Shown: positions 14,650 to 53,796 of the stretch, piece by piece
Layout of the letters: every line of letters starts with the position of its first letter
Position numbering within the stretch: the first letter of the stretch is position 1
NCBI RefSeq assembly: GCF_017939705.1
Contig: NZ_JAGKSQ010000003.1
Location: forward strand, 1-64,000
Direction: 5' to 3'
Source: Halalkalibacter suaedae
Lineage (GTDB): Bacteria > Bacillota > Bacilli > Bacillales > Bacillaceae_D
Length of the DNA stretch: 64,000 nt
Program-made: the position numbers and the translations under genes
The notes under the pieces: generated by a model
Database searches by the model: none
What the model saw: the letters and a program-made list of their open reading frames with translations, nothing else
Told to the model about the DNA's origin: nothing

Positions 14650-14736
14650 CCATAACCAATTGTACCTATTGAGGAAATTCATAAAGCTTTTGTATAGTAC
14701 AGCGAGAAATCTTAAAGGAGAGTCGCCATTGAAAAA

Positions 14737-14770
14737 TGCTTCGACTCCGCTACCGGGATGGGGAGCAAGC
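14737..14770 (+). repeat. Degenerate partial copy of the hairpin repeat at 23.6 kb
   Basis: TGCTTCGACTCCGCTACC and the following GGGATGGGGAGCA match, with a few differences, the reverse complement of 23647-23679. No second arm is recognisable nearby, so this looks like a remnant of the same intergenic element. Confidence 0.6.
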
Positions 14771-15062: not shown

Positions 15063-15305
15063 AAAAAAAGAGGTTCGGGCATAACTAAAGTGCCTAACTG
15101 AAATAGCGAATAATGCAATTACGTAGCGGATGAAATATACGTAGACTCCTGCGGGACCTAAAAGCCAAAGGTGAGACCCCGCAGTGCGAAGCACGAGGAG
15201 GCTCACCGGCTTCCCGCGGAAAGCGTAGTATATTTCAGGAGCGGTTTATGTCCGCCAACTATTTTTATTCGGATTTTCTATGGTTAAATCACTTTTGTCC
15301 CAGCA
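15063..15305 (-). repeat. Dispersed ~240-bp intergenic hairpin repeat, copy A
   Basis: This noncoding element matches 53541-53796 along almost its whole length in opposite orientation. It is built as nested inverted arms: TGAAATATAC (15131-15140) with GTATATTTCA (15228-15237), and GACTCCTGCGGG (15143-15154) with CCCGCGGAAAGCG (15213-15225). It lies immediately downstream of the MATE exporter gene and may serve as its terminator region. Similar GC-rich elements with this core are familiar from Bacillaceae intergenic regions. No coding sequence is present. Confidence 0.85.
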
Positions 15306-15313
15306 CTTTTTTA

Positions 15314-23326: not shown

Positions 23327-23345
23327 ACCTAGTCAAGGACTAGGA
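23327..23345. repeat. 19-bp direct repeat, left copy
   Basis: ACCTAGTCAAGGACTAGGA is identical to 23759-23777. The core CCTAGTC-AAG-GACTAGG is itself a perfect inverted repeat. Confidence 0.9.
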
Positions 23346-23356
23346 CAGACTGAGAC

Positions 23357-23394
23357 AAAACGCCTTTGAGAAAATAACTCTCAAAGGCGTTTTT
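23357..23394. terminator. Bidirectional terminator
   Basis: ACGCCTTTGAGA (23360-23371) and TCTCAAAGGCGT (23379-23390) form a perfect 12-bp stem followed by TTTT on the plus strand and preceded by AAAA. No plus-strand gene ends here, so its partner gene may have been lost. Confidence 0.75.
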
Positions 23395-23553
23395 ACGTAA
23401 TTCCATCTATTTTCAGTTGGTAGACCTAAGGATTGGTGTCCCCCCAATCCCAGTTGTTTTCATTCATATTATAAAAATAATCTATAAATTGTCTCCAATT
23501 TACTTTATAAGGGATCGTTCAAGAGGGAGTAGATTCCCATGTCTCCTCTAAAA

Positions 23554-23679
23554 AAGCGGACGGGATGGGGGCCGACTCCTGCAGGAGGAGAGGGCAGGTG
23601 GAAATCCACCGGCAGAGCCGGTTAGTTCCACGCCCGCCTGCGGAAAGCGTGCCCCCATCCCGGTAGCGGATTCGAAGCA
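23554..23679 (+). repeat. Dispersed hairpin repeat, copy C (divergent arms)
   Basis: The core GACTCCTGC (23574-23582) ... CTGCGGAAAGCG (23638-23649) is shared with copies A and B. The flanking arms are different: CGGGATGGGGGC (23561-23572) pairs with GCCCCCATCCCG (23651-23662). The arms therefore differ in sequence but stay complementary. The element is noncoding. The surrounding region 23228-23788 otherwise holds only terminators and the direct repeats. Confidence 0.75.
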
Positions 23680-23704
23680 ACTTATCATGGTCTTCCTTTC
23701 AACT

Positions 23705-23757
23705 GCAAAAAAGCCTGTCGACAAAGCCTCGTCTTAGCGAGACATTGTCGACAGGCT
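23705..23757 (-). terminator. Terminator of the epoxide-hydrolase-like gene
   Basis: On the minus strand, AGCCTGTCGACAA pairs with TTGTCGACAGGCT and is followed by TTTTTTGCAG. A second small stem (CTCGTCTTAGCGAG) sits in the loop. Confidence 0.9.
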
Positions 23758-23758
23758 G

Positions 23759-23777
23759 ACCTAGTCAAGGACTAGGA
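23759..23777. repeat. 19-bp direct repeat, right copy
   Basis: Identical to 23327-23345, with the starts 432 bases apart. It lies between the hydrolase stop codon (23789) and its terminator. Confidence 0.9.
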
Positions 23778-53540: not shown

Positions 53541-53796
53541 AGAGGCTGAGACAATAGTGATTTAACTAATAGAAAATCCGAACAATATAGTTGGCGGACG
53601 TAAACCGCTCCTAAAATATACTTCGCTTTCCGCGGGAAGCCGGTGAGCCATGAGGCCACTGAAGAAAGGTGAAAATCACACCTTTTTCAGTGGCCTCTTT
53701 TGCATCGCGCAGGAGTCTACGTACATTTCATCCGCTGAGTAAATGCTTTGTTCGGTATTTCAGTTAGACACTTTAACTATGCCCAGCCTTTTTTTA
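53541..53796 (+). repeat. Dispersed ~250-bp intergenic hairpin repeat, copy B
   Basis: It matches copy A (15063-15305) in reverse orientation from end to end. The arms are AAAATATAC (53613-53621) and GTACATTT (53721-53728), with core CGCTTTCCGCGGG (53624-53636). Its ends AGAGGCTGAGACA and TGCCCAGCCT are inverted relative to each other. The centre differs from copy A: GAGGCCACTGAA (53652-53663) and TTCAGTGGCCTC (53686-53697) form an extra perfect hairpin. It lies between two convergent genes. Confidence 0.85.

Follow-up and report, generated by a model that had tools for sequence, protein, structure and literature searches.

Why would the arms of a repeated hairpin change in sequence and still pair? 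The question is raised by three repeat copies, here called A, B and C, in 64,000 nucleotides of the Halalkalibacter suaedae genome (contig NZ_JAGKSQ010000003.1, positions 1 to 64,000; hereafter the window). The first-pass annotation of copy C named two possible causes: selection for structure, or a mechanism (fold-back repair or template switching) by which one arm serves as the template for the other. Taken together, that reading is partly supported. Beyond it, we found that C lies inside an internally deleted element of the IS1182 family flanked by a duplicated palindrome, and that the IS1182-like ends differ between A and C.

Sequence and folding of copy C

We identified the following parts of the hairpin in copy C:

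23561..23572, plus strand: 5' arm, CGGGATGGGGGC (direct reading, folding)
23574..23582, plus strand: conserved motif GACTCCTGC (direct reading, pattern searches)
23583..23639, plus strand: inner stems, variable bulge and apical loop (folding, covariation)
23640..23648, plus strand: conserved motif GCGGAAAGC (direct reading, pattern searches)
23651..23662, plus strand: 3' arm, GCCCCCATCCCG (direct reading, folding)

In C, the arms are exactly reverse-complementary to each other; they are entirely unlike those of copy A (TGAAATATAC at 15131-15140 and GTATATTTCA at 15228-15237), in which both motifs are present. The change of arms noticed in the first-pass annotation is thus real: direct reading confirms that C shares the two motifs with A and B and carries different, complementary arms. 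The description of A and B as alike is correct approximately, because the arms of B (minus strand; TGAAATGTAC / GTATATTTTA) are slightly degenerate and an insert is nested inside. Folded as RNA, C reaches -69.9 kcal/mol (z -4.6), a value equalled by none of 200 shuffled sequences. For the remaining seven folds (the other strand and copy A; as RNA and as DNA), z lies between -4.5 and -5.7, and none of 200 shuffles equals any of them, except one for the plus strand of C as DNA. Positions 23554-23679 hold the hairpin only; the entire element occupies 23345-23758.

Covariation of the arms

We compared 187 distinct copies found in other genomes and on plasmids, leaving out named Halalkalibacter loci, L154-L183 and copies of the same genome. 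The k-th base before GACTCC was set against the k-th base after GGAAAGC. At positions 4-13, Watson-Crick pairs occur at a mean of 7.27 of 10 positions, and registers slid by 1-3 give 1.98-3.52. Each of these positions shows all four Watson-Crick pair types; thus it is pairing, not sequence, that is kept. The 109 copies that pair at eight or more of the ten positions hold 73 distinct 10-nt 5' arms, so the pairing constraint that the annotation had read from two arm classes extends far beyond them. An independent gapped alignment agrees, with 146 of 186 diverse copies exceeding the 95th percentile of swapped 3' arms. Swapping arms among the A copies of the genome itself is without effect because their arms hardly vary. 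The inner stems covary too; for example, GGTG/CAC, GGTT/AAC and AATG/CAT all occur in C. Many arms can be ordered into graded series in which neighbours differ by one or two pairs (e.g., GGAAATATAC and TGAAATATAC; GGCAACATAC and GTCAAAATAC). Among 198 distinct arm pairs, 726 of 787 helical positions are paired and 61 are mismatched (22 G.T, 12 A.C and 27 other).

Copy C lies in a remnant of an IS1182-family element

The surroundings of the hairpin, and the other two copies in the window, are as follows:

23327..23344, plus strand: left target duplication, palindromic, ACCTAGTCAAGGACTAGG (identical to 23759-23776)
23345..23758, minus strand: IS1182-family element of 414 bp, internally deleted, MITE-like (alignment to the IS at locus L132)
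23346..23393, plus strand: left terminal inverted repeat CAGACTGAGACAAA and hairpin ACGCCTTTGAG..CTCAAAGGCGT (reading, alignment)
23468..23497, minus strand: promoter-like site (TGGAGA, 18, TATAAT) between the hairpin and the lost transposase (consensus scan)
23707..23758, plus strand: right end hairpin AGCCTGTCGAC..GTCGACAGGCTG with terminal inverted repeat (reading, alignment)
23759..23776, plus strand: right target duplication, 18 bp (identical to the left copy)
15070..15306, plus strand: copy A, MITE-like, with the other end type (GAGGTTCGGGCATAACTAAAG .. CACTTTTGTCCCAGCAC; comparison of copies)
53542..53788, minus strand: copy B, class A, with a small nested insert in the hairpin (comparison of copies)

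Both ends of the element around C align at 83% to an IS of H. urbisdiaboli (L132), the left end over 23346-23456 and the right end over 23449-23759, and 882 bp of that IS (L132 4467-5348) are absent from the window. The window element and the L132 IS have terminal inverted repeats in common at both ends, which places the window element in the IS1182 family. Its lost transposase would have read on the minus strand, and no transposase similarity was found anywhere in the window using tblastn. The element is therefore a remnant or MITE-like derivative, not an IS: it is short (414 bp) and non-coding, retains both IS ends and lacks a transposase. An 18-bp palindrome is duplicated around it. There are three promoter-like sites in the region where 0.8 are expected, counting consensus matches only; a scan of the leader of the intact relative L392 found neither a promoter-like nor a terminator-like site.

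In H. urbisdiaboli, the C hairpins lie within a repeated unit of about 1.3 kb, as seen when 31 named loci were intercompared. The transposase frame of this unit is opposite to the GACTCC strand, its ends are CAGACCGTAGACAAA.. and ..GTCGACAGGCTG, and the palindrome AGAGATTCTAACTATTAGAATCTCT flanks it. A transposase fragment from this species (179 aa) matches IS1182 (NF033551, E 9.8e-58; Pfam DUF772) with 196 bits, below the cut-off set for the whole protein.

In H. suaedae itself, transposase remnants are still present at one copy (L005). The right end was identified at 14 of 30 C loci of this genome (up to 3 mismatches, no control run) and the left end at six, with a pattern that missed the left end of the window's own element. 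Palindromic duplications of at least 20 bp were recognised by script at two of the 30 (L009 and L014), and that of the window was read by eye. Some of the C copies thus have a clear IS context; the others are either too diverged or different. Only three IS1182 matches, all weak (best 2.1e-25), were identified in the 30-contig draft genome, and thus no present source of transposase was found.

A lone inverted fragment near copy A (14726-14763) matches the 3' flank of C at 84% across 38 nt, and is probably what remains of another C-type element.

The hairpin at transposase genes of the order

IS1182 matches were identified in 197 of 299 genomes of the order, from which we took the best-scoring locus of each of 30 genomes. 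All 30 loci exceed the curated cut-off of 270 bits, including seven that carry the hairpin upstream of the transposase and antisense to it (L383, L387, L390, L392, L400, L405 and L408; up to one mismatch per motif). In all seven, the hairpin core begins 100-171 nt ahead of the open (stop-to-stop) frame and is directed away from it. Four of the seven are from one genus, so fewer independent lineages are represented. L390 has a second hairpin after the gene, and thus one on both sides. The hairpin was not found anywhere in the fetched locus in the other 23. The layout of hairpin and transposase recurs in H. urbisdiaboli, at L005 and L208, and on a viral contig (L153).

Exact palindromic direct repeats of at least 19 bp flank 16 of the 30 loci. 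All 16 are among the 20 in which the longest frame has 424-496 codons, vs. none of the ten with longer frames; several loci in both groups end at contig ends, and the longest frame of L401 may not be the transposase. One locus of the longer-frame group (L407) has the end AAGAGACTGGGACAAAACT, which resembles the class A end, in keeping with what has been published on IS1272 (see below).

We also searched for element ends beside 88 hairpin copies with extended flanking sequence, drawn from the family, the order and plasmids (L082 is from H. suaedae and several others are from its genus). An A-type end in the right orientation was present on at least one side of 17 copies, a C-type end at four and a third type at one; 66 have no recognisable end of these three types. 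Controls far from the hairpin gave no match for any type, and wrong-way controls gave one, of the C type.

Conservation and loss of the hairpin in class A copies

The ends of class A copies resemble those of another IS1182 group. The end GGCTGGGACATAACT occurs at 76 sites with up to one mismatch (reversed control, one site). We examined all 33 exact A-end sites, chosen by the outer end alone. The hairpin is kept in 18 (by a loose motif match), including L223, which has a nested insert. It is lost in seven in which the ends are present (L363 twice, L365, L366, L369, L373 and L374). A nested insert is present in six (L364, L367, L368, L376, L377 and L382), and two sites are incomplete (L378 and L379).

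In the 18 copies that keep the hairpin, its base deviates from the majority at 10 of 972 positions (1.0%) and the outer parts at 73 of 754 and 103 of 952 (9.7-10.8%); this set was chosen by outer ends, and being called intact still required the loose motif match. The inner stems deviate at 38 of 666 positions, the bulge at 21 of 50 and the apical part at 40 of 234. Conservation by region at C loci is biased, as the query was nearly all hairpin, and copies found by exact motifs were kept out of the conservation figures. Stems differ at 10 of 413 positions (2.4%) and outer parts at 31 of 762 (4.1%) in the seven closest pairs of A copies, vs. 1.9% and 13.0% in all 435 pairs. Differences in the stems thus fail to build up with depth, which is what one would see if copies left no descendants once their stems were broken. 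In a set of A copies (L032-L060), loop and bulge positions differ by about 32% even where the outer parts differ by 4%; the loops seem to change much faster than any other part.

Four of the hairpin losses join at AGCG, which is common to the flank and GGAAAGCG. They are found in two parental variants, and therefore at least two losses occurred. Such losses may have arisen by slippage across the folded hairpin. A candidate for an autonomous element with A-type ends (inverted ends 1.67 kb apart, at 296951 and 298617 of contig C26) was rejected, as it consists of two hairpin-deleted copies around ordinary frames.

No target duplication was apparent at 52 A copies, where direct repeats have a mean length of 1.37, vs. 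1.32 for swapped flanks. One hairpin-less copy (L374) is flanked by a long direct repeat (10, the limit of the script, and longer by eye). The 5' edge is A-rich in 36 of the 52 copies and the 3' edge is T-rich in 45, with both in 32. Both genes flanking copy A are retained, without the element, in two relatives, but at about 72-81% identity the exact junction of the empty site could not be read. A search of plasmid relatives for clean empty sites found no record besides the query's own that covered most of a query.

A small palindromic element, GAGGCCACTGAAAAAGG.., is inserted at the same place in the hairpin loop in copy B (53652-53697) and at L364, L367, L376, L377 and L382. In the copies other than B it is flanked by 8-bp direct repeats (e.g., ATGCAAAA, ATGTAAAA and ATGATAAA); B has lost the second repeat. 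This is a MITE inside a MITE.

Distribution and genomic context

The 4.32-Mb genome contains 148 exact matches to the pattern GACTCCTGC N55-85 GCGGAAAGCG, 81 of them forward and 67 reverse; the reversed pattern, used as a control, has none. The exact motifs are present in 29 of 41 genomes of the family and in 266 of 397 genomes of the order, with up to 168 copies per genome; the reversed control gave one match, in one genome, across the order. In a draw of 398 genomes from the phylum, three matched, all among the seven that belong to the order, and none of the 391 outside it did. The C-specific pattern was identified in 31 stretches of named records, a count that may not include the record of the window itself. 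All are Halalkalibacter except two from Bacillus sp. JCM 19034.

Copies on plasmids are few, and are of A-like and Priestia-type forms on plasmids of Priestia, Niallia and others; C has no match in the plasmid collection. The single match on viral contigs (L153) lies beside an IS1182 gene. The hairpin, whether in the window or at 20 loci of relatives, reached the gathering score of no Rfam family. Literature searches by sequence string and by topic found no description of the hairpin; subscription journals were mostly outside their scope.

None of 178 copies overlaps a frame longer than 600 nt. Of the 168 with two neighbours, 58 lie between convergent genes, 11 between divergent genes and 99 between genes on the same strand, counts that were made with a crude frame caller and without a genome-wide background. 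The element was not found within up to 1.5 kb of flank at 11 loci of the genus that retain the gene which adjoins copy A in the window, two of which keep both neighbours. Thus, copies are gained and lost.

Several further observations concern the placement of copies. Of 16 copies listed for one contig (G066:C1), 13 are on the minus strand, and the three on the plus strand are all beyond 1.4 Mb; orientation may follow replication or gene direction here. In five plasmid stretches (L217 and L219-L222) of Bacillus, Priestia, Paenibacillus and Peribacillus, a hairpin copy lies 3' of gnd in a neighbourhood of sugar-phosphate and formaldehyde-assimilation genes, and a Tn3-family transposase is annotated nearby in three of these stretches (L219, L220 and L222). 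The single Y1 transposase gene of H. suaedae (L061, contig C11) is bracketed by an unrelated inverted repeat (GGGACGGTTCTC / GAGAACCGTCCC).

Possible roles of the fold

We consider it likely that C represents the leader hairpin of an IS1182-family IS whose transposase was removed by an internal deletion, that the hairpin family is a module present upstream of the transposase in a subset of the IS1182 elements of this order and in far more numerous transposase-less derivatives, and that the fold works in cis. Of this, the constraint on pairing, the IS context of C, the palindromic target duplication and the deletion of the transposase are established by the data above; the recognition of a right end at 14 of the 30 C loci makes the reading as a whole slightly less likely. 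The hairpins have two fixed motifs opposite one another in an internal loop, complementary arms that change freely, and variable loops. Insertion is into palindromes; the target palindrome is duplicated in the C group (CAGACTG.AGACAAA ends), and no duplication is seen in the A group (GGCTGGGACATAAC ends). A mutation in one arm would be followed by a compensating mutation in the other because only paired arms would work. Most standalone copies elsewhere may have the same origin.

Two roles in cis can be envisaged. The structure may be read during IS1182 transposition, or it may shield the transposase from read-through by transcripts entering from a neighbouring gene. The hairpin is outside the promoter-like site; if that site is real, the hairpin would be within incoming transcripts and absent from the transposase message, and a shield is plausible. 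Upkeep of the fold in copies without a transposase argues rather for a cis role in movement, or for use by the host. The strongest argument against a need in cis comes from the seven A copies that have good ends and no hairpin, unless their hairpins were deleted after insertion. A more specific form of the idea, for which we hold rather little expectation, makes the hairpin an essential cis structure: the transposase or a leader RNA would read folded DNA in both the element and its palindromic targets, so that arms drift while paired and only foldable copies are moved.

The absence of the hairpin from 23 of the 30 IS1182 loci, and of a recognisable IS1182 end from 66 of the 88 copies elsewhere, means that the hairpin may be a separate element, mobile in its own right or useful to the host, that was taken up by some IS1182 ISs and hitch-hikes with them. 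The hairpins on both sides of the gene in L390 would also fit. This is a real possibility, though not the one that we favour, given that all seven upstream carriers have the same orientation within a narrow range of distances (four being from one genus), that the layout recurs in H. urbisdiaboli, L005, L208 and the viral contig, and that the A and C lineages carry two kinds of IS1182-like ends. Selection by the host on each copy, as a bidirectional terminator or a stabiliser of 3' ends, is unlikely. It would account for the position of copies outside long frames and more often between convergent than between divergent genes, for A-rich and T-rich edges, and for the low divergence of the hairpin base relative to the outer parts. 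However, insertion into terminators predicts the same location, copies turn over (the element is absent at the 11 loci that keep a neighbour gene of copy A), and the stems of the closest A pairs differ at 2.4% of positions and their outer parts at 4.1%, so that stems are hit at the tips of the tree.

Rewriting of one arm from the other by fold-back repair or template switching, the second cause named in the first-pass annotation, is very improbable. Differences between arms are nearly all full Watson-Crick replacements, with few mismatches, and deletions between the AGCG repeats that bracket the hairpin suggest folding during replication. These features would fit such copying, but we found nothing positive for it: the graded arm series, with steps of one or two pairs, need no copying of whole arms, the inner stems covary too, and the loops do not turn palindromic. 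We also regard as improbable a functional RNA, regulatory or guide-like, made from the GACTCC strand and spread by ISs. In 71 of 94 diverse copies, this strand, which is antisense to the transposase, gives the better RNA fold of the two (mean energies of -55.0 and -52.0 kcal/mol, with no composition control), a bias that lends no support to a function within the message of the transposase. In a helical context, G.T exceeds A.C in arm pairs from other genomes (19 vs. 8), as it does in the arms of diverse copies (22 vs. 9). The excess is not seen when unfiltered arm positions 4-13 are summed (93 vs. 100), in inner stems (14 vs. 29) or in copies of the genome itself (3 vs. 5), and Rfam has no match. 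Movement of the hairpin as a REP-type repeat by a RAYT (Y1) transposase is scarcely credible, and was rejected after a PF01797 search of this genome and 397 of the order. The copies are dispersed, intergenic, palindromic and numerous, one Y1 gene is present in the genome, and 293 of the 397 genomes have a Y1 match; against this, the Y1 gene L061 is not flanked by the hairpin repeat, no conserved GTAG tag precedes the hairpin, and six genomes (G353, G290, G146, G368, G373 and G226) that are absent from the list of PF01797 matches have 51-82 copies.

A shape-constrained module of IS1182 elements explains the changing arms of C better than either mechanism of the first-pass annotation alone.

Comparison with known systems

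IS1272, a member of the IS1182 family, is reported to target stem-loops and to replace them without duplication; in the model proposed for it, joining at the other foot duplicates the entire stem-loop (pathway b) (Wan et al., 2017; PMC5678879). The elements described here are similar in that a transposase of this family lies next to a hairpin and palindromic (stem-loop) targets are used. Class A, without target duplication, resembles the reaction reported for IS1272, and C, with the whole palindrome duplicated, resembles pathway b of that model (PMC5678879). The window copy differs in having no transposase, and 23 of the 30 IS1182 loci have no hairpin. The consulted passages on IS1272 make no mention of a long, covarying hairpin in the transposase leader (PMC5678879).

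The copies resemble bacterial MITEs in being short, non-coding, intergenic and bounded by terminal inverted repeats, and in outnumbering the transposase genes found. They differ in that a structure-constrained central hairpin is better conserved than the rest, with arms that vary between lineages. Dispersed intergenic palindromes are also a feature of REP/RAYT systems, but the hairpin lacks the GTAG tag and RAYT linkage described in the consulted sections of PMC3733652, and is about 125 nt long vs. 20-40 for REPs. Bhal-1 of B. halodurans is a 74-bp stem-loop with 36 copies (PMC2267715, in the portion consulted); by that description, the hairpin core would match it in size, copy number and host group.

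The IS1182 family and the formation of MITEs are known, and as far as our searches go the covarying module is undescribed. The finding gives an identity to a repeat that is present in two thirds of sampled genomes of a well-studied order and has no Rfam match. It ties structure-constrained hairpins to a transposon family that has already been proposed to recognise structure when transposing. The hundreds of natural arm variants are material for testing whether the transposition machinery reads folding, not sequence.
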